Positions 17,278-64,000 of a stretch of DNA of 64,000 bases are shown in pieces. A model generated the notes under the pieces. The model was not told where the DNA came from, searched no databases, and was given only the letters and a program-made list of their open reading frames with translations. Numbering within the stretch: position 1 is the first letter of the stretch; every line of letters begins with the position of its first letter. The stretch is taken from the NCBI RefSeq assembly GCF_032118995.1, contig NC_092660.1:2433501-2497500 (forward strand), written 5' to 3'. Source of the DNA: Asterias amurensis. Its lineage: Eukaryota > Echinodermata > Asteroidea > Forcipulatida > Asteriidae. The translations under genes were made by a program, and so were the position numbers.

Positions 17278-17481
17278 ATTGCGACGTATCGCAGAGTTAT
17301 GACGTAGGTCAGAGCTCCGTCTGTGATAGGTCGAAACCTGTTGAAGGTGTGTACACACGTGAGTAAATTGCTGCAGTCGCCCGAAGGCGGCACTCATCTT
17401 GCGGCGCCAACGGATACTTTCCACACTGGTTTTGATGAGCGCCTCGAGAATAACACATACTAGATTCATCATCTCCCAAGC

Positions 17482-18471
17482 ATGGAGAAAATAACAAACG
17501 TTCTCGCCCATCTTGAAAGATTGAAATTTAAAATCTGTCTTACTTTACTTCTTGGACTGGTTTCACTGAACGGCTCCCAAGCCCATCTTGACCGTACATT
17601 TTTCGCAGCTAACCATCGGTCCCTCGAGAATGTCGATTTCTCAGTAAAGAATTTCAGCTCAGCTGTACTCTGTGTGAGTTACTGTCACTCTGAACATGAA
17701 TGCAAATCAGTAAACTACCGTCTGAAAGATCAACGATGTGAGCTGAATAATGCCACCAAAGACCAGTATCCTGATAACTTTGCCGACGAGTATGGCAAGG
17801 TATACTATGACGATGATGTGAACACCCCTCACTCCTCACTGTTCGGTTGTAACGAGCTCCTTGAGGCGGGTTTTGAGAGCGGTATCTACACTATCTTTCC
17901 CAGTGGGTTACCGGAGGGTCTCAGGGTCTACTGTGACATGACAACCACTGGAGGAGGATGGATCGTCATTCAAAGGCGCCTAGATGGGAGCGTTGACTTC
18001 TACCGGGACTGGGCGGACTACCGGGCAGGTTTTGGCAACTTGGCGGGTGAGTTTTGGCTGGGAAACGAAAATCTACGCGCCTTGACAGAGTCGGAAGGGA
18101 CATGGCAGTTCCGCGCCGAAATTGAAGACTGGAATGGCGGAAAACTTTGGTCAGGGTCTGGTGTTTTTCGAGTCCACGGAGATAACTTTGCGGTCCATAG
18201 CGATGTAGAAACCGGTAGCCGTATTTTTTCTGTGCAGGATGGTATGTTATTCAGCACAAGGGACAGGGACAATGACGTCAATTCCAATACACACTGCGCA
18301 CAGCATACCAAAGGAGGTTGGTGGTATAGCAGTTGCTACAAAGCTAACTTAAACGGTTTGTACTATAACGGAGCAAGGCAAGCTGAAGATGGAATAACAC
18401 TGTTTTATGGGGGCAAAAGTTTTTCACACACAATGAAAACGTGCAGCATGAAAATTCGCCGTGTTGTGTGA
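17482..18471 (+). CDS. Secreted PAN/apple plus fibrinogen-related lectin, intronless
   Basis: A single 329-residue open frame. Residues ~18-34 are a hydrophobic signal segment (CLTLLLGLVSLNGSQA) after a longish charged start. Residues ~40-112 form a PAN/apple-like module with Cys 64, 68, 74 and 86 and the phrase CELNNAT. Residues ~121-329 are a complete fibrinogen C-terminal domain: FGCNELL, VYCDMTTTGGGWIVIQRR, a GEFWLGNENL block, DRDNDVN calcium loop (261-267), and HCAQ...GGWWYSSCYKANLNGLYY. The two standard disulfide pairs (Cys 123-151 and 272-285) are present. Proteins of this class (ficolins, tachylectin 5) bind acetylated sugars on microbes; binding here is inferred from intact calcium and pocket regions. 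No intron interrupts the frame, unlike the flanking genes, which could mean retroposition or intron loss. The start has a usable context (AGCATGG) and a TATA box upstream. The alternative is a developmental matrix protein rather than a defence lectin. Confidence 0.92.
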   Translation: MEKITNVLAHLERLKFKICLTLLLGLVSLNGSQAHLDRTFFAANHRSLENVDFSVKNFSSAVLCVSYCHSEHECKSVNYRLKDQRCELNNATKDQYPDNFADEYGKVYYDDDVNTPHSSLFGCNELLEAGFESGIYTIFPSGLPEGLRVYCDMTTTGGGWIVIQRRLDGSVDFYRDWADYRAGFGNLAGEFWLGNENLRALTESEGTWQFRAEIEDWNGGKLWSGSGVFRVHGDNFAVHSDVETGSRIFSVQDGMLFSTRDRDNDVNSNTHCAQHTKGGWWYSSCYKANLNGLYYNGARQAEDGITLFYGGKSFSHTMKTCSMKIRRVV

Positions 18472-22354: not shown

Positions 22355-25300
22355 ATGTATTTATTTGTGGCCCACGTCTTAACATGCATGTTGGTATTCT
22401 GCAATGGATTTTCGGCTGTAGACACCTCGGGTAAGAAACAAGTTTCTACTCTTTTGAATTCATAACTGGTTTATATTTATTTTTTGGTGTGGATTAGTTG
22501 GACTAACTACTGCTTATGTCTCGTACGACTAATTAGCGTTGTTTTGACTATTTTTTGTTACAGTGTTAGGTATTGTTTTACGAATGCTTTTGTAGAACAC
22601 ACAATGATTATTCTATCAAATTCTGTCTAGACGCACCCTTCTTTTTAATGAAGGTTTTCCTAGTGGACTTTAGAAGAGTATTACCTCGATTTATTAAAGG
22701 TACTTGATTTCTTTGGTAATTGTCAAATACCAGTATTCTCTTCGCGGTACTGCCGTTAATAACGATCCTATAAGCTAAAGTAGTAGTCCCAGCCAATTTT
22801 CTATACCTTCCGCCCATGAAGTAAAAACGCAGGACTTTTCATTTCAGAACTGAGAAGCCTCCGGAACAGTCCGATAAATCTACTCCGCGGGAGTAAAATA
22901 TAATTAAAGCAAGACGGTTCTCCAAGAACAAACTCTACCTGGCAAGTAGATACACACATGGGGTTACCGCAAACCAAATATAATATATTGATTCCTTACC
23001 ATGCAAAGCCTAAAATCATTTTTAACAATAACTGATCATGTATTGTTTTTAACCTAAATTAACCACAATTTTACCCCCTCTCTTTGGTTATACAAATGTG
23101 ACTCAATTTATAGATGTTTGCCCTGAGGGATACGAAGTGGGCTACGATGGGGGATGTTATTTATTCGAGACAAATGCAGTAGCATGGAGCATCGCTAGGA
23201 ATAACTGCACCGATACACCGGACTCTGATCTGCTCGTTATTAACAACAGTGACGAACTGGAGTACATTAAGCACCGTATCACAAGTGGGATATGGTGGAT
23301 AGGTAAGTTTGGTACTAAGGCCCTTTGCGAAACCAGGGCTTCGGCTTTAGATTCGGCTTCAGGCTCCATTCTTTCGTCTGAAGCCCAGACTATAAGCACG
23401 TACGCCAAGCACGCGCAATTGTCAAAACAACCGCAGGGCCAAGCTAGCCTGAGCCGAATCTGGAGCCGAAGCCGTGGTTTTGAAAGGGGCCTATATGCCT
23501 GCTTGTCAAGTTGTCACAAAGTAGACTGGTCCTTGAAAGACAGGTATTGGGTTTACAGACCCAGTGATTTAATTGGATTCAATGATTTCATTGGACAAAC
23601 GTTCTGTGTTTTGATTGGTCCGAGGTGGTGTTTGGCAGCTGCATTTTCGTTTAATTAGTTAAGTCTGCATAATGCAGCCTGCATAATATATGTACCAAAT
23701 GTGATTATGGACAGGTAGTAGACGTAGCCTACAAGCTAAACGCCTTTAGGTTGTCAGTTTGTATCGGAACATTTGGTAATTGTCAAAGACCAGTCTTCTC
23801 ACTTGGTGTATCTCAACATATGCATTCAAAAACAAACTTGTGAACATTCGAACTCAATTGGTCGTCGAAGTTGCGAGAGAATAATGGAAGAAAACAAAAC
23901 ACTTGTCACACAAGTGGTGTGCTTTCGGATGCTTGAATTCGAGACCTCAACAAAATCAAATTCAGTGAGAAATAACTTCTCTCAAAAACGTTGTTACTTC
24001 AGAGGGAGCCGTTTCTTACAAAGTTGTATACAGCTCTCTATTGCTTGTTACCGAGTAAGTTTGTACGCTAAAAATTTACCAATATTAATTACCATAGTGT
24101 CCAGTGCCTTAAATAGACGTGTGCCGATCGGTGAACAAAACAGTGTTTTTTTTAAATATTCTTTACCAAAGCCTCTATGAAATCTAAAAACTTTCATGTG
24201 CTAGCTGCATGATGTGACAAGATTGCTCGTAAAGTAAACGATTTTATATTTAGTTATAGGTATAAAACAAAACTGCATTCAGACAGAAATACTCTTATCT
24301 ATGAATGCTTAGATAAAATGGCCACATCAGTGCAATAAAAACCGCAATAAAAAACACTGAAGGGTACTTCACCTGCCGATATGATGCCTTGCTGATAATA
24401 GAAGTAAACATGATATAATGAAGTATATGATTTAAATTTATAGATAGGCTGTGAACTGCATGCCAAAAATCAATCAATTATTTGTCGAAACTTATAGATC
24501 TGTGATATTTGCTCATCAAATATCGCGCATGTCCGCCACTTGGTGACACTCCTGCTGTCGTTTTCACCAAACTCTTCCTAACGTGACTATTAGGACGAGT
24601 TAAGTTCCGTAAAGAAATGCCTACTGTATCTTTGTCTTGAGGCTTTAAAACATTCCTCTTACGATTGTGTTTTGTTGCAATAGGATTTACAGACCTATCC
24701 GTCGAGGGAACGTGGGAGTGGATTAACTGCACCGGTCTCTTCAACCAATCTTTGTGGGCTCCAAACCAGCCCAACAACGGCATTGAAGATTGCGGTGCGT
24801 ACCAGGCGGTCCCGCAGAAACTGGCGGACTATCAGTGCAGCCGAGAATATAAATTCATATGTGAAATATCTACCAAAGGTAAAAAGGCAAACCTAATGGT
24901 TATTATAGAGTATAATAATAGTGACTTATTATAGCGCCCATATCCGTTACTTTAGTGACGCTCAAGCGCTTCAACATTTCGGTAGGCAAATAACAATTCT
25001 TTGATTTCGGCTTATGTGGTTTTACGTTTGACTTGTGGGATCAACTCCTTACTAAATAGCACCAAGTATTATGGTTTGCAATGTGCTGTGCTGTGGCGCA
25101 ATATGCAGCCAATAAAACCAGGGTCTCCAAGGCGAACCTTTCCTCTTTACGATAATTGCACTTGGTTATTTTACTTGCTTCACATACACAACACACATGA
25201 ACCAATGGCTTCGAAGATTTCTTTTGTCAAGGTTGCAAACCTTGCCATCTACCGCCACAAAAAGCCTCAACACTGACTTTGTACCCATCTTTGCAGGATT

Positions 25301-28300
25301 TTCAGATGATGATACCAACGCAAGAAATGTGGCCGCAACGAAAGTGAATGACACCATAGCTCACGTGACGTGGGACGTTTCGCAGTACAACTGTGACGTC
25401 ATCGGTTACAGAGTTTACTATGAACATTATGGCAACTCACAAACAAATGGTGAGATTTGTTTCAAAGCGTTCACAAATCCTTCGAAGGTGCATGTATAAC
25501 TATTAATATTTAATAAACAATGGACTTTAAGAGATAATGCACGAAAGACAATGTGAACCATGGCGTCGCCGTTTGCTTGTTTGTTCAGGTAATCTTCCCG
25601 TCACAACTCTGCAAACTCCCACTGTGGGATACGAATGCCAAACTGGCAACAACAGGCAATCTCTCTAACGTTTAACGTCTATCATTATGAATTGCACAAG
25701 TCGAGAAGTTAATACTTGTAATGTATGTTGGGCTATATTTGAAGTGTGATACATACGTCCTTAACAAAGCACTTGTGAAACTAACAGTTTACACGATTCT
25801 GTTGCGCAATGTGCAGCCGATCAGACCAGGAACACCGGGTGATCCCTTTCTCTTTCCTTTAAGTGCACTGTGTTCTTTAACGTGCGTTACACAACAGACG
25901 GGACCAACGGCTTTACGTCCCATCCGGAGAACGAAATGTGGAGGTATTGTGTCAGGTACTTCTAGCTTCTTATAGACAGATAAACCCTCGCACGTTGTCA
26001 GTCCCACTGAGAGTAGTGCACGGGGTTATTTAACGTGCGCTTTAACACACGGGACCAACGGCTTTACGTCCCACCGACAGATTAAACGTTGAGGTTCTGT
26101 TCTAGTTTCTACCTCATTGTCAATCCCACTGAGATTGTGTTTTCTTCTTTCCTCTATACTGATCAGGCTCCGTTCAGATAGACGGTGGAAACTCAACGGA
26201 GGTGTATCTACCTCTCACGCCGGACATGTGGTGGCAGATTTACGTAGCTGCAATGAAGACTGATCATCAGGAGTTAGACCTGGTAGGGCCAGCATCAGTA
26301 TGGTTAGGTAAGATCATTTTTGTTATTTTCCATGAAGTATAAACAGGTATTAACTTTTTGTATGACCAAATATTATCCAGTATCAATGTACAAGGTAGAC
26401 ATTCACTGTACAAACTATGCGAATGTTCAATATACAATATTGATGTACAAGGTAGACATTCACTGTACAAACATATTGTGTAAATGTCCAATATCCATAT
26501 CGATGTACAAGGTATAGTCATTCACTGTACAAACCTACAGGAATGTCCAATATCCAATATCTAAAAAGCAACATCGTTATTCGCTGTTCAAATACCCATT
26601 AAAGATGTACAGGGTAGATCCCATAAAAGATTCACTGTACTGCCATACATTTTGGTGGAGTTTTACTGAGCTTTGTAACAGTTGTTTGTACTATATCTCT
26701 AAAGGTTCGTGTCCGGGGTGGCATGTGCCTGGACTTAACGGGTCTTGCTATTGGTTCCAGTCCGAGGAACGAGACATGTGGTATAGCCATAGGAACTGGT
26801 GCAAGAGCTACGGCAGTGATTTGTTGATCATTGATAGCCCAGACGAGTTAGAGTACATCTTAAACCGGACAGAGTCAATCGCACCTAATGAGACTTGGTG
26901 GATTGGTAAGTGAACATTCAAAGGTAGTCCTAACTCATACACAGACACGGGGATGATGCAGCAAGCGCGATTTCAGGCTCAACAATATTCCATAAACCCA
27001 ATTCACCTCGTTAAACCAGTCTAATCGTTTCAAACCAAGTTACTTTACGTGCAAGGTATTATAGTAATTAGCTTTAGACCTAAACCAGGCTATTCTCCAT
27101 GCATCCGTTAAAGGTTACGACACAAGTAAATGGTAACCATGTAAACCCGGTTTTATAACCGGCTTGTCCTTTCACACCACTACTACAAACGGCTTATCGT
27201 TTTAACCCAGGTTACACCGATGTATCTGTCGAGGGTTCATGGAAGTGGGTAGATTGTGGTGACACCAACGACTGGCAAAGTACTCTCTGGGCACCAGGGG
27301 AACCAGCGGAACCCGATGATTGCGCAACGCTGCAAGGAAACACGGGTCATCTCAGAGGTCAAATCTGCGACCAGAGATTTCTGTTTATCTGCAAAGTGTC
27401 TCCTAAAGGTAATTCTTCACGAGATAAAACGGAACCATTTTAAAATAGAACTTAGAAGTTTTTTCTTGTAACGCAAACTTGACAAGTCTGTTTTCGTCCC
27501 ATTGTAAGATTTCACCAAGGAAGATACCAAGCCGAGTAACTTGACCGCCATTGCTGTGACGTCTTTCAGTGTTGAAGTAACGTGGGATGTCTCTATGTTT
27601 GCCTGTGACGTCATTGGTTACAGGGTGTACTACAACTCAACGTCTGACAAGGACAACCAAGGTAGGATTTTCCTTCCTGAAATATTTTAGTCGAGTTGAG
27701 GTCTGGGTTGCTTTTCCGTATTACAAAAGTCGATTGTGTGAGGCACGTGGAGAGACTTGATGTGATTTGAAGAAATGTATAACTTATATCTTTGAAATAA
27801 GTTATTTTCTTTCAAGATACTGAGTTGGTGTTTTCTTTCAATATATAAAACTATACTCCCTTCCTTGTCTTCTCTCCATTGGTTTCTTGTCTAGCAAGGT
27901 GATTGAGTTCGCTTTTCTGGTAGTCCTTGGCGTTACAACCAGAATAAATACAACAAAGAATTCTCAATATCCTCTTCGGTTGTATTTTTCTTTCAACAGA
28001 CTGGGTGTTTATTAACGGTGGAGATGTAAGCTCAGTGATACTGTCAGGGTTAGCTAAAGAGACTGACTACTCCATTGGGGTCGCTGCTCTTAGGACTGTG
28101 GAGGAACTCGAACAAATCGGCCCCGTGGCCGTCACTACTCCATGGGGTAACTAAACCAAACCATGAGATCAAAATGTCTTCATTTTTAAAAATCATTCAC
28201 TTCAAAAGATGCTTTTTGACATCTTAGTTAACTTTAATTAGATACAATGTAATGTGAGTCAAATGTCTTCATACTTGCTGGAGCAGGGTAGTCGAAACGT

Positions 28301-48985: not shown

Positions 48986-49107
48986 AATATTCTTTAAACC
49001 CCGATGCATATTTCCATCTCCTATAAATCTAGTTGCTATAGTGCATTTCTTAATTAAATAAACTTTGCACGTCTGCTGATTATGTTTCTATTGTCAGGTT
49101 ATCAATC

Positions 49108-52100
49108 ATGGAGACCTCTCGAAACGTCGACAAATTCAGCAAGATGGAGCGGTTCTTATCGGGGCTGTCGGACTTCGGCAAAAGGAGTCTCAACTTGAGC
49201 GTACTTGTGAACGACGAGCCTCTAAGAAAGGCCTACTCAACCGCAATGGCTGATGGAGAGCTTCCAACCAACCGGGCAAGAGTCTTGATTCTAGGCGAGC
49301 CACGTGCTGGAAAGACCAGCTTGCTTAACCGTCTACTCGGGAGAGAGTTTGACCGCAACGAGCGGCCGACACACGGCATTGAGACGCGTATGTGTCACGT
49401 CACCAATGTGGACAAGCAATGGAACGAGGCAGGTAGTGCTAAGGTAGATGATATCAAAGAATGTGCCGCAGCTATTGCTGCGCTTGAGGAAGCTTCATCG
49501 GAGGAACCACACCAAAAAGAAGACGCCACCAAGAGTTTCTTCAAGGCATCTCCATCGTCAGTTGATAACTTCTTCTCATCAGCATCCGTCGAGACTGGAT
49601 TACTCAACATTTGCAAACAGTTTTCAATTTTTTTCGATATCTCTGTGGTGATGCTGGTTTCTCTCTTTGTTGGCCTGAGTCAATTTGGTTACGCGGCATT
49701 TACGTTGGGCTGCATAGGTTTACTGACTCTGGTGCTTGACTACAACGTCGCATTCAGGTGTGCCATTTGTGTCTCAGTTTCGTTCGCCCTCTTCGAAGCC
49801 ATGGCGAGAGGAAATGAACATCAGAAAGAGCTTTCTTGCACAGTGAACGACGATTTCGTTGCACTGGACTGGTTTATCTTACAGAATATCGTATTCAATG
49901 TGTTTAACACGGCCATATTTGGCACGGCGTGCGGTCTTGGATTTCGGACAGGTGTAGCTGTCGCCTTCTCAGCGAGTGTGCCGCCGTGGGAGGATAGCTC
50001 CGGAAACACGGCATGGCAAAGTGTCTCCTTTTGGAACGCTGCGTCCATCTGCCTGGTGCTGCTTGCTGGTAGCTTATCGGGAGGGGTAACCTACAAGTAT
50101 TGCACTGTGAACGACCGGTTGCACAGAAGACGAACCATTGCCTCGTGCTTTTTTATGACTCTTTTGTTCACAGTCTACGTTAACGTTGAGTGTGGTAGCA
50201 GACTGCTTCTATATATCTTCATGAATGCGTATGTGATGATAGTAGGGATGGCTTGGGGGTTTATGTTCGGACGCAGAGCTGTGATGAAGCATGGTTTTGA
50301 GGCTCGATATATAACTAAGAAAACCATTGGCCTAATTTTCGGCTTTTACCTTGTCCGCATGTGTGGATGGAGCCTTAGACTACCGGGTACCTCTTTAAAA
50401 TCGCTAGCCTTTTATACTTTCTCAGTAATCGTATTTCCATTGTTTGACCTCTACACAGCCTTCAGGATATGGAACACAAAATCTACTTTCCCTGTGAAGA
50501 CGATTCGGAACCAAATGAAGGCTTTGATCCAGGGACAACCTCTTCTTGAGACCAAACTGAGTCTGTGGGACTTCGCAGGTGATACTTTGTACCACTGTAC
50601 CCACCATGTGTTTATGCCAGACAGAGCCATGTACTTGATTGTCTTCAACCTAGAGGCAGCTGTATCTGACGAAGAGGAACAACTTCAGAAACTTCTCTTC
50701 TGGCTTCACTCTGTCTGTGCGCACGCCCGGCACCCAGACGCTGTAGTCATGATTGTCGGTACCCACAAAACTAGCGTTCCAGAGGCAGAAAGAAAATGCT
50801 TCACTGATAATCTTCACAATCGAATCGCATCCAAATTCTGCGACCGGCTTGTTCTCAACCCGGCTGACGATAAACCTTTATTTCTGGTAGAGAATTCGGA
50901 TGCCTTTGATCGAGACTTTCGACAGCTGAGAGCAGAGATATTTCGGCGTGTCGAGACTGCAGAGTACGCCCAGGAGAAATATCCCATCAAGTATTTGCAT
51001 TTTTACCGTGAGATCCAAAACCGTCGGAAGCTTGCCCAGGCGCCGGACTGTGACAAGAACGTAGCCAGCCTACAAGAGATCCAAGACCTGGCAAATCTCA
51101 CATGCAACATAGAGGGTGAGGAGCAGCTGCAAAAAATGCTGAGATACTTCAATGAGGCAGGAGAGATCATCTACAGAGAGGAAGACGTAATACTAAGGCA
51201 GCATGTTGTACTTGATCCTCAGTTTCTGGTAGACGTCATGAAGAAGCTAGTTGACATCCCAAGAGCCTATCATCGCTCACATCGCTACGCCATTGAATGG
51301 AGAAACTACGAGAATACCGGAATTATTTCAGAGGAGTTGCTGCATCACATCTACTTCGATATGCCTCATCTTATTCCATTGCTAATCAATCTTCTTCAAG
51401 CATTTGATCTCATTGGCTCATTGGAACCCAATCGAGGCCCAAGCTATTCACATCCTTCATTTTTGGTGCCTGCCATGTTGCCTCCTTTTGAGTGTGAAGG
51501 GTCGAAGTTTTGGGAATCACAGGACAAGGAGGAGGTCTTCTACTTTGACTTTGGCTTCTTCGATCCCACAACTATCTACTACCGTCTATTGGCAAGATGC
51601 TTATCACACGCCAACAGAGAAAACGACGAGCCTCACTTTAAACCGCTCATCTTTGCAGATCGTTCTCGGTTCTACATTGGAACTAGTTTAATCTTCAAGC
51701 TCCAGTTGGAGAAGAGATCCTCCCAACAACAGCTTCTTTCGGTCGCCATTTTAACTTTTGACTCTGAGAACTCCAGCCAAGAATTATTAGGGTTTTTGGT
51801 AGAGGCTGTAACGAACATCACTGCTCGGGATTATTCACATCTTAACTTTACATTTGGACCCCGGTGTCCTTTCTGTGAAACACCTCGTCCATCGAATGAA
51901 CTGACGGACGTCACGGAACACGACGAGGCAATCCATGTCTTGAAAATGGCGGGAAACGATAAGTCATTTCCGACAAGGTCATCGACCGTAATGTTCTGTG
52001 GAGTAAGACGACACAGTATGAAGCTGAGCAAATCAAGGGTAAGTGCAAACTTAAAAAAAAAAACTAAGAAGAACTCACTCCGCGGTAGTGAAGTTTAATA

Positions 52101-55100
52101 ACGATCCAATACAAGCTAAAGTAGTAGTCCCGGTTGATGTTCTACCTTACCGCCATAGTTAAAAAGCAGGCGGTTCTTTCCAGATCCAAGAAGTCTCCCA
52201 GATCACGAAAATCTACTCCGCGGTAGTAAAATGCCTGTCCCCGAAATACCACTAAACACAAAAGGAATACAAAAGTACTAGACCGTGGGATGATGCTCCA
52301 AATTCTGCTTTTCAGTGCTCTACCCTACACAACTACTTACATTTGGTCTCAAAATTTGAAGAAAATTTAACTTACCACCCAAAAAAAGTCGTCAAGCACA
52401 AAACTTGCACAGTATGGATTTATTCGCGAAATGAAGCACAATAATACAGCGAGAATAAATGGCTGAACGTGCAACAAAAAAATAGATGACTTATAAGCTC
52501 GGCCAATCATAGCGCATATGACATGCATGCGGATGTGTGGACCAATGAAAGAGCTTGTTTCGAAGTCCTGTGGTTTTGTGGCCCTTTTCGAAACGACGGC
52601 GCCTGCGTTGGATTCAGCTTCAGGTTCCCTTATCTCGTCTGAAGCCCTGACCGAGCGCGTACGCAAAGTACGCACAATTGCCAAAACAACCGCGGGGCCA
52701 AGCTAGCATGCGGAGCCGAAGCCGTGGTTTCGAGAAGGATTTCAGAAAGATGTCTTCTACGCTTCTCAGGAAACTTCGTCCTGTGTGAAGGGAAGAAAGT
52801 TGCGAAGATCGGCTCGTTTTATGTTACATGAAAACAACATAAATTTAATCCGAGCTAGTTCGGCTGGCAGGAGTTCGTTGGTCCAGCAGTGGTTAGGAAA
52901 AACATCATGATCATCATGACATGTGAAAATGTGTATGCTTGGACGCCATGGATGATGACATGACAGCGACCTACAAAAGACAAGACCTTCCGATCCAATT
53001 TTACCAGGAAGCACAGCGGCAGCTGCTGGTTGGAGTACCGTGGATGTACTAGTGGAAGTTGAAGGTATTTAGGCAACATTTCTTTCCAGAACAAGTTGTG
53101 CTTCAATTCGAAGCAAAGCAGTTAATCATTTTTTTTTTTTTTTTTTTTTTTGTCAAGTCATGAAGTTAAACAAAATGAAATGCCCCGATCTCTCAAATAT
53201 ATGAAACGAAATCAGAGTCACGATCACATGATGAGGATACACATTTTGGTGATGAATCATGATGATGACACACATCGGTTTTAGTTATTTACTTAATACT
53301 TGAATTAATAACAATAAACATACATCATATTCATACATGCACTGTTACAATTAGTAATTACAATTACATGTACAGACTACAGTATGAAAAATCAAAAAAC
53401 ATTAAATATTCAATGCACTAGGCCGATTAAAAATGAACACGATTCAGGAAAAATTAAATTGGCCCTTACTTACTAAACTAAAACACTGAAGTGGAGGAAG
53501 GGCAAGGGTACATACACGTTCCCCAAGACCCCCATACTAATCACGTGATGAAGTATGCTTGAATAATAATAAATAACATCCCAATCTTTATTCTTAAAAT
53601 TCTAGAGGCAAACAACCAGATTTCTTTGAGATGTGGTATTAAAATTAAAATTTTGTATTTAAACTAAGGGGAACAAGCCTAATTTTGTTTTCAAATAAGA
53701 TGAGTAAACTAGGGCCTCATTTATTTGTATTTCTTTTCTTTTCAGTATGACATGTCCGCTCTGGGTTAGTGGTATATCAACACTTTTCGCTGACAATGAA
53801 GCGTGCAGGTAGTAGGAGAAACAAAGAAAGGCAGAAACTAATCTGAGAAAGCTAAAGAAGAACAAAAATTGAAGGTAAAAAAAAATAACTTGTTCATTAC
53901 TCTCGTCCACCAGAAGAAATACTGTGCGTAACCTTCTAACCTTTTTTTCTTTTGTTTTCAGGAAAACGAGAGAAAAAACTCAAATGAATATATGGTTAAC
54001 TGTTGGTATTTGTGAACAGGACCAGTATCCCTATTAAATAAAAAAATCTATATATAAAATCTGTGTAAATTTTTGCAAGAATTTGCTACAAGATAATGAA
54101 AAGTTCAAAGTATTGGGGTAAAAATGTCCTCTTTATATCAAAAGCTTTCCAGTACTCTTTATCATACGTTTTGTATGGATTGACCTTTAGTAGTTGGGCA
54201 CAAGTTGACTAGGGTATGAGGGCATGCCACTTGGATATGAGAAATTCATGCTGCCTAAATAAACTTTGTATTGGATGTGTACTACAATTAAGGAACAATG
54301 AGTTGATCTACCTTCACCAAAACTGTACATGTTTGCTTTTCCTACAAACTGTTTTTATTTTGTGTACTGTCTGTTCAGTCATCGAGTATGCTTTTATAAT
54401 TCGCTTGCAGAACGCGAGAATAGTGATGCCATTAGCAACGAGACAACTGAAGGTGAACCACGATCAAAAGGTTGCTACGCTCTGACACTGGTGATTCTGA
54501 AACGCCTCAGCTGAACGTGCTCCCCGAACAGTGTATCATGCAGATTGAAGAAGAAAGTATGTAAAGGAAAGTATCACACAGCAGATGTTCCTGTCAACAA
54601 ATCAGTTTCCCCTGCACAGACCTATGCTTTTGTGCCAGTTGTGGAGTGGCTTCAAAGGACTCGGATGGGGATGTTTATTCTGATGATAACTAATTTAAAC
54701 AAAATGTTGTCTGAATCATCATTTTCAATAGAAAAGTAGAAAAAACAAGAAGAAAATTCTGCACAAGTACAATGTGTAAAAAGTAAGCTTTTGGCTTACC
54801 AAAATATAAACCTTAAAATAAATGTGGAACAATTTATTTGAGAATTGAATTAACCCATCAGTTACTGTGGTACCAGAAAGACAGTTTGGGAACTAGATTT
54901 ATATTATTTTCATTCAATTTTGTAAAATCTTTATATCTTTGAAATTGTTAACGGCCCTGTCACACCATGGTGTATCGCCTTAACGTATGCCGGCGTATAG
55001 GCCTACAGAAACTAGTTCGAGCATTTTAAAAGTTCAAGAGTGCCCAACTTCCCAGAATCGCATCCATAGCGTACTGAACGTATACAAAGCGTATGACTAA

Positions 55101-56953
55101 TGAATTGATAGCGTATTATCACTAACTTAAAATGAAGTTATGTATGTTACATGTGGATACGTGAGAATACGTCAAGACTTTTTGGGGATACGCCAGGCAT
55201 AGGTTATACGGCACATAAACAGATTTATTATTGTTTTAAATTGAATTGTGTTGGGGAATTTAAAAGGGCCTTTTCAAGAAAGTAACATAATTCATCATGA
55301 TAACAATGAGTATTGTACTAGAAATGTGTCATTATGATATGAAGAGAAGAAATTAAAAAAATCTTAATATCAACAATTTCCTTTTTTTGTCAAGTTCATT
55401 CATTCAATCGATTACAATTTAATTAAGGCCTGTCTAAGCTCTGAAAACTTAGTAAATGACCAAAATGAGGCCCAGAAAGTTTGTTAGTGACATTAATTTG
55501 AAACAATTGAAATAACTCAATTGGGGAAATGATTGATGTCCAGGGATGTTAAATAATTAATTAATCTGGGAGAAAAGAGCTGAAAACCTGTAAATGAAAG
55601 CAAAATAAATAAGCCAGTATATTTTCCCCATTCGTTTGTGCACTTGGTGATTTGCCCATAGAGTTTGTGCATAGTTCTCCAGTTTTGACCAATAGAGGGC
55701 GCTATTTTTCTTTAATTATTTTCTAATTAAAATAACTCATTACTGTGCAAGTTTTGCCCTTGACGACTTTCACATGTTATTCAGGACTACCATAAGAACA
55801 TCTGGGGAAAAATTCAGGTAGTTGCAGAGGGTAGACCACAAAACTCGAAAACTAGAGCCCTTTTTGATGATCATCCCACGGTCTATACCATCAGTGTTCC
55901 AAAAACACATTGTGTTTCACAGTAAGACTCCAAAAGCACCAAATGCCCTCGCTGACAAGGAGACACACACACACACATGGTGTTACCGCAAACATCAACA
56001 TGCAATACCTCAAATCCTATTTAAATTTAAAACATTGAGACCTATACCACTGATAGAACCTATTTCTTTTTCAAACTGACTGGGGTATTAGTTTTATGAT
56101 TCACCACTTTAGGAGAACCTTCCAAGTACCTCCCATCCACCACAGAGGGTAGTCTTTGGCCCGGAGACGCTCATCACCAAGATACCACCAGACCTGTTTG
56201 ACAAGGTGTGCTGTTTCCTGAACACTAGGGGGCAGAGGAGCTGGAAGACACTGGCAGGTGAGAACACAGTCGTGGCTTGTGTAAAGTTTCTCGTGGAAAC
56301 TTTCAAATGCAAATCGTTGATTTTAAGAACAATTGATTCCCACCCCGATCATCACATCCCGTGGCCGAGCCGTCTAGTTCACGTGACTCCAACTCTTGTA
56401 CTGTCGGTGTGGACTCAATTCCCGGACACCTGTGATGAAGGAAGTCCGTTTTGCTCTACAAACTAGGCAATTGATAGAGGATAAGAACCCGTTCCTACAT
56501 CCTTACGGACTGTGAATGAGGTATCACCCTGTTCCAGGTCCAGGGGTAGGTGGCAATGCGCCTCTGGTGACAGCTGATTTGGGTTGACGTCTAAAACAGG
56601 TTATAAGTGTAGCCCTTGTTTTGAAGTCGTCCGGCCTAGTAAGATTGGGCGATATTTCATAGAAAATAAATCACAACAAATCACTGTCCTCGATTTTAAC
56701 AGTGGCTCTGCATGAACACACAGAGAGTCTCCTTGATTGTATCCATCTTTCTGTTTCCTCAGGTGAATTGGGTAAAGATGTGGATTTCGTAGCTGCTTTA
56801 GACAGTGAAGGGGTGACCAACCCCAGTGAGCATCTCCTCAAGGGATGGTCGATGGAAGGAGGCGTCACAGTGGCTGATCTACTTGAGGTTCTAGAAAGAC
56901 CTGGTCTGGAGAGGAAGGACATCATCCAAGAAGTCAAAGCTCAAATGTCTTGA
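49108..56953 (+). CDS. ROCO GTPase with multi-pass membrane insertion and C-terminal Death domain
   Basis: Exons 49108-52038, 56113-56257 and 56763-56953 join in phases 0 and 1 to give about 1088 aa. Residues ~55-100 start a Roc GTPase domain: P-loop GEPRAGKTS (63-71) and a switch-I-like PTHGIE. Residues ~172-452 then hold eight to ten hydrophobic segments with few charges. The Roc domain resumes with LSLWDFAGD (G3, 484-492), YHCTHHVFMPDRAMYL and MIVGTHKT (the G4 position, 548-555, lacking the usual Asp). A COR domain follows (~625-925: YLHFYREI, ILRQHVVLDPQFLVDVMKKL, the IYYRLLAR block). After a basic linker, exons 2-3 encode a Death domain (~995-1088: RSWKTLAG, ELGKDVDF, LLKGWSMEGGVTVADLLEVL). 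Known ROCO proteins (LRRK, MFHAS1, DAPK1) have a continuous Roc domain. There are no leucine-rich repeats or kinase. It would sit in a membrane and signal through Death-domain partners; that is inference. The ATG lies 10 bases after an acceptor and precedes the P-loop by ~62 residues. Read-through of the first donor would add only a short Lys-rich tail and lose the Death domain. Confidence 0.85.
52080..52235 (-). repeat. 'TTTGCGGTAACACC' family fragment
   Basis: Shares ACTCCGCGGTAGT, AAGCTAAAGTAGTAGTCCC and GAAAATCTACTCCGCGG with 22730-22982. It directly follows the donor of the large ROCO exon. Confidence 0.5.
52560..52742. mobile_element. Inverted-repeat MITE (family E), copy 2
   Basis: Inverted arms CGAAACGACGGCGCC.../...AGCCGAAGCCGTGGTTTCG around the GCCAAAACAACCGCGGGGCC centre shared with 23318-23494. 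Confidence 0.7.
53130..53151. repeat. Poly-T tract
   Basis: Uninterrupted T run of about 22 bases within the first intron of the ROCO coding region. The rest of 52750-56100 holds no supported gene apart from the possible optional exon at 54411. Confidence 0.9.
54411..54452 (+). CDS. Possible optional 42-nt exon of the ROCO gene
   Basis: Preceded by TATAATTCGCTTGCAG and followed by GTGAAC. It is 14 codons long (NARIVMPLATRQLK), open and phase 0 at both ends, so it could be included between 52038 and 56113 without changing the frame. There is no homology support. Confidence 0.2.
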
Positions 56954-57103
56954 TGACTTCGTAGCTGCATTAGACAGTGAAGGGGTGACCAACCCCAGTG
57001 AGAATCTCCTCGAGGAATGGTCGATGAAAGAAGGTGTCGCGGAGTGGCTGATCTACTTGAGGTTCTACATCATCCAAAAAGTCAAAGCTCAAATGTCTTG
57101 ATG
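56954..57103 (+). pseudogene. Tandem, degraded copy of the Death-domain exon
   Basis: From the stop codon onward the sequence repeats 56785-56953 (TTCGTAGCTGC...TTAGACAGTGAAGGGGTGACC, then a matching end GTCAAAGCTCAAATGTCTTGA). It has a single-base frame change near GTCGCGGAGTGG and lacks ~28 bases before the end. No acceptor precedes it, so it should lie in the 3' UTR. Confidence 0.85.
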
Positions 57104-57534
57104 ATTTGTTTCTTCCTTTCTTGAGAAAAGACTACGTTTATTTAACGCCGTTATGCTCAAGGATTATTTCAAAAATCGAAAGAAAGCCCGAGTTCAATAT
57201 ATCGTTAGAACGCCATTATGAACACCTCCCCCTTTTGAGGATTAATTTAATAAGCATCGCAGCGTAGTCTCCTATACTCAAGACAGGAATTGCAGCGCAC
57301 AAAACCCCGCGCTGTGTAAAAAGCAAAATGCTTCCCGGATCAAGAGACTAAAAAACGACCTTTCGGAAAAGTACGGATTTGGTGTGTTTGACATCTCCGC
57401 CGTTCAGAACATTGTACCTTTCAACAACATTTGTTTCAATTTCATATAATACTGTGTGTCGGTATCATACAAAATGACGATTTACATTACAACAATCCCC
57501 GGTGAGCGTTTGCTTGAATATGAGACTTTCTAGG

Positions 57535-63613: not shown

Positions 63614-64000
63614 TTATATTTCGTAGTAGATACAGCCTTCCCTTCCTTGGTAGTTTTTCCCCCCGTCCACATCAAACCGAGTTGCGTTATTAAGTTCACA
63701 TAAGTCTCCACCAGCCACGTTAAACGAACGGCATCCAGGTGTTTCGTTACACGCCATGCAGCAATGCAAAGGGCGCTCTACTATCATGACGTCAAGGGTG
63801 TGGTTCACGAGGCAACGCCCGTGAAATACAGAGTAGCAGCTACTGGCCGAGTTGGGGCAAAGGGGAGGGGCCGGACGCTCACATATGACATACCTGAGTT
63901 CGTTGCAATTCACATCGTTAAACTTGTAAATGCTGCTGACCACTGCGCAATCTTCACCTTCATGACGATGTCCATCAAGCCAGTCAGTGCGGTACGGCGA
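63614..64000 (-). CDS. C-type lectin plus PAN/apple protein, 3' terminal exon (partial)
   Basis: An open minus-strand frame enters from the right edge and ends at TAA 63616-63614. It encodes the last ~40 residues of a C-type lectin domain (DWLDGHRHEGEDCAVVSS, then FNDVNCNELRYVICE) followed by a Cys-rich PAN/apple module (CYSVFHGRC, CCMACNETPGCRSFN, CELNNATRFDV) and a short end. The module repeats the CELNNAT phrase and Cys spacing of the PAN module in the fibrinogen-related protein at 17482. The lectin half has D-G-H where some families have an EPN-type site, and N-D-V-N-C where calcium-binding members have W-N-D-x-x-C, so its sugar site may be modified. Probably secreted; the start and signal peptide lie outside the window. 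Confidence 0.8.
   Translation of the reverse strand, partial: SPYRTDWLDGHRHEGEDCAVVSSIYKFNDVNCNELRYVICERPAPPLCPNSASSCYSVFHGRCLVNHTLDVMIVERPLHCCMACNETPGCRSFNVAGGDLCELNNATRFDVDGGKNYQGREGCIYYEI

Follow-up and report, generated by a model that had tools for sequence, protein, structure and literature searches.

A starfish gene encoding a ROCO variant with a predicted multi-pass membrane region inside its Roc domain and a C-terminal Death domain

A gene for a split Roc domain and its two paralogues

We analysed a stretch of 64,000 nucleotides (nt) of the genome of the starfish Asterias amurensis (C13:2433501-2497500, here called the window), in which a gene on the plus strand encodes a variant ROCO protein: a Roc GTPase domain interrupted by a predicted membrane region (the block), followed by a COR domain and a Death domain. 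The genome searches reported below cover the 23 contigs (491.5 Mb) of this species, whose published assembly has 22 chromosomes and 491.53 Mb (PMC10625585; this and all other papers are cited from excerpts). An open reading frame (ORF) on the plus strand at 49108-52098 encodes 996 residues including read-through into an intron, and 977 codons up to the donor at 52038, as the single uninterrupted exon described by an initial annotation made from the sequence alone. The joins proposed in that annotation, 52038-56113 and 56257-56763, both use GT-AG introns, the second of 505 nt, and their positions and phases are the same in a paralogue that is 59% identical. The features of the gene are listed below.

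49096..49097, plus strand: acceptor-like AG, 10 nt 5' of the ATG, predicted from reading the sequence
49108..52038, plus strand: exon 1, 977 codons for the N-terminal half of Roc, the membrane block, the C-terminal half of Roc and COR
49264..49419, plus strand: Roc N-half, residues 53-104 (beta1, P-loop, switch I, beta2), matching Roc profile positions 4-55 and 33-88 of the structure 4wnr
49294-49320, plus strand: P-loop GEPRAGKTS, within the Roc N-half, in which PTHGI is switch I
49420..49620, plus strand: variable linker, residues 105-171, with 21/57 residues identical to the nearer paralogue over residues 111-168
49621..50460, plus strand: predicted membrane block, residues 172-451, assigned from hydropathy and charge segregation in three paralogues and modelled as ten helices with cytosolic ends
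50461..50547, plus strand: linker, residues 452-480, basic at its start
50548..50967, plus strand: Roc C-half, residues 481-620 (beta3, G3, G4 and G5-like LVENS), matching profile positions 55-88 and Pfam Roc
50566-50583, plus strand: G3 WDFAGD, within the Roc C-half
50761-50772, plus strand: G4 THKT, within the Roc C-half
51028..51480, plus strand: COR-A, residues 641-791, by Pfam PF16095 (E 1.2e-11) and the genome-wide family search
52039..56112, plus strand: intron 1, 4074 nt, GT-AG; 125 nt in the 59% identical paralogue
56113..56257, plus strand: exon 2, 145 nt, start of the Death domain; a 71% identical exon of equal length and with equal splice sites in the nearer paralogue
56763..56953, plus strand: exon 3, remainder of the Death domain and stop codon; a 75% identical exon in the nearer paralogue, Pfam Death matching exons 2 and 3 together

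The two paralogues share one strand of the same chromosome and are separated by about 9 kb, at C13:5864119-5866962 (59% identical, the nearer) and C13:5852943-5855495 (30%, the third family member). Neither has an internal stop, and both keep the Roc halves, the membrane block and COR, all open. An AG is also found 2 nt and 6 nt 5' of the corresponding ATGs in these two genes, one of them reading CAAG. Since the distances from AG to ATG are mutually out of phase in the three genes, we read the AG as the end of an intron in the 5' untranslated region; exon 1 is thus probably not the first exon of the gene, and further coding exons may lie upstream of it. Downstream of the nearer paralogue, Death exons 2 and 3 stand in the same order and with the same intron phases, exon 2 again being 145 nt and the introns 125 and 137 nt. 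Given this conservation, the Death exons are very unlikely to be part of a different gene. A further exon of the third paralogue, matching window residues 889-956, was seen at L004:6431-6664 (minus), so that its region behind COR-A is split by more introns; the 3' end of this gene was not located.

The Roc domain is interrupted at the interswitch hairpin

The Roc GTPase of the window protein is interrupted by 376 residues, between residues 104 and 481, and Pfam Roc (PF08477) accordingly matched the exon 1 protein in two stretches (70.8 bits, cut-off 27). We built a Roc profile from 79 prokaryotic Roc sequences, the single-match ones among 84 matched ORFs, and ran it against the three family proteins, its E-values referring to this 3-protein database. 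In the window protein, residues 53-104 covered profile positions 4-55, and the second match, residues 481-514, took up at position 55 and ran to 88, leaving no stretch of the profile missing between the halves. The halves of the nearer paralogue covered the same positions (4-55 and 55-88), and those of the more distant third paralogue covered 4-53 and 48-87. An independent alignment with MbRoco (4wnr, 33-88 then 89-124) gave the same seam, and the C-half also aligned with the Roc domain of LRRK2. As read from these alignments, the seam follows beta2, which comes after the Thr-Gly-Ile of switch I, and precedes beta3, which comes before WDFAGD (strand names follow general usage for Roc). This is the tip of the interswitch hairpin, which can hold an insert without breaking the core of the G domain.

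The spacing from G1 to G3 is 416 residues in the window protein versus 35-67 (median 39) in prokaryotic Roc ORFs. The latter range comes from the 82 measurable of the 84 matched ORFs (79 loci), which were the best 79 loci of 186 related stretches by similarity to an uninterrupted query, a set biased to intact Roc in which split domains are under-represented. The initial annotation had assigned the P-loop and WDFAGD to one GTPase fold about 410 residues apart, and both the measured distance and the continuous seam bear this out. G1 (GxxxxGKT), the switch I Thr and G3 (DxxG) are all present, and COR lies directly behind Roc as in ROCO proteins. Because its Roc fold is not contiguous, we refer to the window protein as a ROCO variant.

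The insert is a predicted multi-pass membrane domain

Hydropathy analysis of the window protein gave nine 19-residue Kyte-Doolittle peaks of at least 1.3 within 290 residues, a number that 0/1000 shuffles of the protein reached. The paralogues showed 7 and 8 peaks, with their own counts reached in 1/1000 and 0/1000 shuffles. In each of the three members a single frame stays open through the block: the stops per frame are 0, 21 and 12 in the window copy, and the other frames of the paralogues hold 12/13 and 20/9 stops. On this sequence evidence a multi-pass membrane domain is well supported. The initial annotation had counted eight to ten hydrophobic segments; the nine peaks uphold its multi-pass character, while the number of segments is itself unsettled. 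It had also allowed that homologues might reveal a soluble region here, and both paralogues proved hydrophobic and open across the block.

We modelled the block as ten helices, positioned manually along the window protein; the Roc fold requires both ends to lie inside, and the model follows this. In this model Lys and Arg residues are distributed 16/2 between inside and outside in the window protein, and 16/2 and 16/3 in the paralogues. Acidic residues are distributed 3/6, 1/8 and 2/4 in the three members, the outside loops being more acidic in all of them. An eight-helix version gave 18/2, 18/2 and 17/3 for basic and 9/2, 7/4 and 6/2 for acidic residues. Ten helices with cytosolic ends therefore describe a model, in which the helix number is best taken as ten and is not settled.

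No Pfam family matched the block at E up to 1 (window:49570-50500), and so no transporter or channel family did. As sole query it found only the three family members in the Asterias amurensis genome at E up to 1, and no significant internal duplication appeared in three profile comparisons of its parts. A likeness of the GRR loop to transporter motifs was considered and dropped, as no match was found. Residues invariant among the three members and lying in or next to modelled helices are G272, G276, G278, R280, G282, G380, G384, G388, R389, K404, K405, G420 and W421, many of the invariant residues of the block being Gly or charged.

COR and Death domains

COR-A (PF16095, residues 641-791) scored 45.1 bits against a cut-off of 35.3, and no kinase or ankyrin match was found by Pfam in the exon 1 protein. 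The C-terminal Death domain of the initial annotation was recovered when exons 2 and 3 were joined (Pfam PF00531, E 4.9e-6, 27 bits against a cut-off of 22.6). Both exons and their phases are kept in the nearer paralogue, which also matches Pfam Death. The solved chains closest to the joined sequence were IRAK3 (E 1.8e-5), p75NTR (4.3e-5) and MyD88 (0.0014), a sequence likeness in favour of the MyD88/IRAK side. The 11 solved-chain matches include no Death chain of DAPK1, of which the library may hold none. Against the genome, the joined Death query matched only the window (exons 2 and 3 and a decayed copy) and the nearer paralogue. A Death-domain search of the whole genome gave 126 matches (E up to 1), and clusters on C18, C12 and C19 account for many of them, which amounts to a large expansion in Asterias amurensis.

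Divergence within the family

Between the window protein and the nearer paralogue, identity is 55/63 (87%) in the Roc N-half, 114/140 (81%) in the C-half, 146/213 in COR and 111/285 (39%) in the block, making the block the fastest-evolving large part of the protein. Block identity with the third paralogue falls to 20-24%, with the invariant residues retained. Differences in the block fall 126/99/180 on the three codon positions over 285 codons. Synonymous change there is saturated (proportions of differing synonymous and nonsynonymous sites, pS 0.80 and pN 0.38), and no ratio of nonsynonymous to synonymous change (dN/dS) is given for it. This ratio is 0.08 in the Roc N-half, 0.145 in the C-half and 0.21 in COR, values that mix both copies. 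Outside the genome, viral contigs gave no match to the exon 1 protein, and the prokaryotic genomes scanned with the family alignment gave 199 pattern matches and 0 relatives by tblastn.

A separate observation is the mosaic divergence between exon 1 (49108-52038) and the paralogue at locus L002: of the fourfold sites, 37/50 differ in the block and 67/160 in Roc and COR (Fisher p 8e-5), as if gene conversion homogenised the switch while the block diverges.

Other ROCO genes of Asterias amurensis

A COR-A search of the genome gave nine places at E up to 0.01, three of which are the family described here. Like the window gene, ROCO genes at C8:11.06-11.08 Mb, C9:14.35-14.38 Mb and C13:13.42 Mb have exons for a Roc-like G3 and COR-A. 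The C8 (L025/L020) and C9 (L031/L032/L021) genes further share with it an insert in the same loop and a downstream Death domain: a P-loop exon is followed by a switch-I-like stretch, conserved acidic and low-complexity stretches and a G3 exon, with Pfam Roc matches of the single exons below cut-off. The Death domains lie on the same strand about 10 kb and 6 kb downstream of the COR exons (C8:11080935 and C9:14377055, E about 1e-11); for the C13:13.42 Mb gene the Death match was weak (E 0.5). The C8 and C9 genes differ from the window gene in having many exons and insert stretches that are not hydrophobic, the maximum 19-residue Kyte-Doolittle value of the two conserved stretches recognised being about -0.6. 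Their insert therefore appears to be soluble. Some open pieces of the genomic stretch do have a hydrophobic peak, one of which (1.76, probably intronic) lies just before the switch-I-like part, and a single membrane span could be present in the insert, which is read from exon pieces and not from full gene models. These two genes form a close, multi-exon pair with an insert of SPQTAV-like low-complexity repeats, and both have a conserved N-terminal exon without a Pfam match.

The initial annotation had stated that known ROCO proteins have a short G2-G3 spacing and are soluble. The C8 and C9 genes have long inserts in the same loop, and long spacing alone is hence not unique to the window gene. 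Since apparently soluble inserts in this loop and a downstream Death domain occur in these relatives, the novelty is the membrane block. In our reading, a ROCO-Death protein with a loop insert would be the ancestral state, and the membrane block would have arisen or been acquired in that loop.

Relation to known systems

ROCO proteins include the kind of switch protein that is mutated in Parkinson's disease. Descriptions of members such as LRRK2 and DAPK1 mainly cast them as cytosolic switches, whose membrane link is debated (PMC6337361, PMC6320773). The ROCO group known to have a Death domain is that of DAPK1, with an N-terminal kinase and ankyrin repeats (PMC6337361, PMC6320773). DAPK1 shares with the window gene the order of Roc-COR and then a C-terminal Death domain, which we found here by PF00531 and conserved in one paralogue, but its kinase and ankyrin repeats have no match in exon 1. 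Because ROCO-Death proteins are already known from DAPK1, a Death ending alone is not new; excerpts of the same two papers describe no membrane domain in DAPK1. MbRoco (4wnr), other prokaryotic Roco proteins and LRRK2 resemble the window protein in Roc and COR. They differ from it in having leucine-rich repeats, and LRRK2 also a kinase (PMC6337361, PMC6320773), and the 35-67 residues between G1 and G3 in 82 prokaryotic ORFs leave no room for a comparable insert. Elsewhere, Roc/COR has been reported together with Death and TIR in a sea anemone protein (PMC5094078) and in TLR-like and MyD88-like proteins of Aplysia (PMC9334734). A study of brown-algal ROCO proteins used transmembrane prediction, with no result reported in its main text (PMC11378527).

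No membrane insert in Roc is described in excerpts of PMC6337361, PMC6320773, PMC5094078, PMC9334734, PMC8195603, PMC7159879, PMC2575513 and PMC11378527. The initial annotation knew of no family with the order split Roc, membrane block, COR and Death, and we likewise found none published in the open-licence PMC literature. It is quite possible that an unpublished family, or one annotated but unnamed, exists in other echinoderms.

The closest parallel in design is outside the Ras-like GTPases. KAP NTPases, whose members include Kidins220/ARMS and PifA, were reportedly treated by Aravind et al. in 2004 as having membrane segments in the P-loop domain; they are not Ras-like GTPases and are not known to have a COR domain. 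Transmembrane segments are inserted within their P-loop NTPase domain (PMC2577010), as predicted here for the window protein. This is a likeness of design and not of kinship, and no KAP profile was among the 10 Pfam families listed for the window protein up to E 10.

A second parallel is one of mechanism. The N-terminal element of Arf proteins faces the membrane. In Arf, Arl and Sar the part that moves is the beta2-beta3 interswitch, which connects this N-terminal element with the nucleotide (PMC3012027). These proteins have no insert, and the comparison with the window protein is by analogy of mechanism only.

A proposed mechanism and its alternatives

That split Roc, membrane block, COR and Death belong to one gene, as the initial annotation held, is supported by the two paralogues (one for the Death part) and the conserved splice sites. 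We consider it likely from the sequences that the three genes form a starfish family of membrane-embedded ROCO proteins, in which the interswitch is tied to a polytopic module and which signals through Death domains. The chain would start in the cytosol, where the first part of Roc (beta1, P-loop, switch I, beta2) would be made. It would then leave the G domain at the beta2-beta3 turn, pass through the membrane in an even number of crossings, ten being the most likely, and return to the cytosol to complete Roc (beta3, switch II, G4, G5), with COR and Death next (Death was not found in the third member). The Roc halves would fold together beneath the membrane, the membrane module being a large loop that the interswitch hairpin carries at its tip. 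Since the interswitch is the moving part in Arf, a membrane module on this hairpin is well placed to act on the switch. A change in the module, caused by a ligand, a lipid, an ion or the state of the membrane, could move the hairpin and set the nucleotide state, by analogy with the Arf interswitch toggle in which a membrane-facing element is linked to the switches. Dimerisation driven by COR would then present the Death domains to adaptors of the IRAK/MyD88 type, leading to immune or cell-death signalling.

More tentatively, and with somewhat less than even confidence, we propose that a polytopic membrane domain is built into the interswitch hairpin of a Ras-superfamily G domain, the first such case, and that the protein serves animals as an immune or death receptor, the bilayer directly gating Death-domain clustering. 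If so, the membrane module and the GTP switch would be one mechanical unit. A natural ROCO protein built into the membrane through its interswitch would offer a means of studying how the Roc switch is set by membrane events. It would also carry the rare principle of membrane helices inside an NTPase fold, seen in KAP, over to Ras-like GTPases, and would give echinoderm immunity a new candidate class of receptor.

Several results weigh against the model of a membrane-embedded ROCO family. The ten helices were placed manually, and on the window protein. A home-made topology path found, depending on the penalty, 5-9 helices in the window protein and 5-8 in the paralogues. It put the C-terminal end inside in 9/9 best paths (one of them tied with an outside end), but the N-terminal end outside in 6/9, always with odd helix counts. 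An outside N-terminus with an odd count would leave the Roc halves on separate sides of the membrane. In G4, whose Asp confers guanine specificity, the window copy reads THKT and lacks the Asp of THxD, whereas the paralogues have THKD and THRD. Because this Asp is missing, the window copy may not be a normal GTPase; its GTP binding is doubtful, and its nucleotide binding may be weak or of another kind. For the third paralogue, a two-sequence profile run over C13:5835001-5852900 revealed no Death domain, the best candidate (E 0.12) being a short piece that was rejected. A genome-wide Death search listed none there either; the same search misses the family's own split Death exons and says little, and a Death domain split by introns could be missed in the third paralogue.

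The coupling might also run the other way, the membrane module being a channel, scramblase or transporter that Roc-COR controls upon GTP binding or hydrolysis, and Death only assembling or recruiting it. We give this reversal a fairly low probability; a channel gated by the switch comes close in plausibility to the direction proposed above. Invariant Gly and charged residues in helices are a feature of transport proteins, and many invariant residues of the block are of this kind and lie in or next to modelled helices. About ten helices are also far beyond the need of an anchor. Neither the absence of a Pfam transporter or channel match at E up to 1 nor that of internal duplication in the three profile comparisons fits such a module well. 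The same helix number and invariant residues, the latter kept despite 20-24% identity with the third paralogue, speak against a rather unlikely reading in which the block is a mere anchor in a tolerant loop, holding an ordinary ROCO-Death adaptor at the membrane without coupling. The low-complexity inserts in this loop of relatives would suit an anchor, as would the rapid evolution of the block (39% identity versus 87% and 81% for the Roc halves).

The absence of the G4 Asp from the window copy, together with a decayed extra Death exon behind the gene and a young transposon in intron 1, would be consistent with a degenerating pseudo-GTPase scaffold that lacks specific GTP binding, the working enzyme being the paralogue at C13:5.86 Mb. 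To this, too, we assign a low probability: the full-length frame is open, the splice sites are intact, and Roc and COR show dN/dS of 0.08-0.21 relative to the paralogue, though the ratio mixes both copies. Because of its THKT, the window copy is in any case the poorer first experimental object, and the nearer paralogue the better one. Finally, the central region could be an artefact of the gene model, either because an intron was retained or because two genes were fused. This is very improbable and already contradicted by conservation. The block is open in one frame in three paralogues, with an excess of third-position differences and a conserved Roc seam, and the genome holds no separate copy of it at the sensitivity of our search (E up to 1); the initial annotation had likewise argued against a gene-model join.

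The intron 1 transposon and the neighbourhood of the gene

Two further features lie within and directly behind the gene.

52279..55885, no strand assigned: transposable element, young and present in many copies, which takes up most of intron 1 and has long inverted terminal repeats; both ends are approximate, and the right one is inferred from those repeats
56955..57107, plus strand: tandem copy of exon 3 in a decayed state, immediately after the stop codon, recognised from repeats D1-D3 and a gapped match

The left 497 nt of the element gave 46 matches, 30 of which besides the window's own were 94-99% identical over at least 390 nt. The copy count is a lower bound, 40 of 1598 candidates having been scored. 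The same window contains a lectin-like gene neighbourhood at 17464-18471, 23053-23658, 26518-26913 and 63614-63997 (minus), whose exons matched Fibrinogen-C with PAN, C-type lectin or PAN, two of the lectin matches being below the Pfam cut-off.

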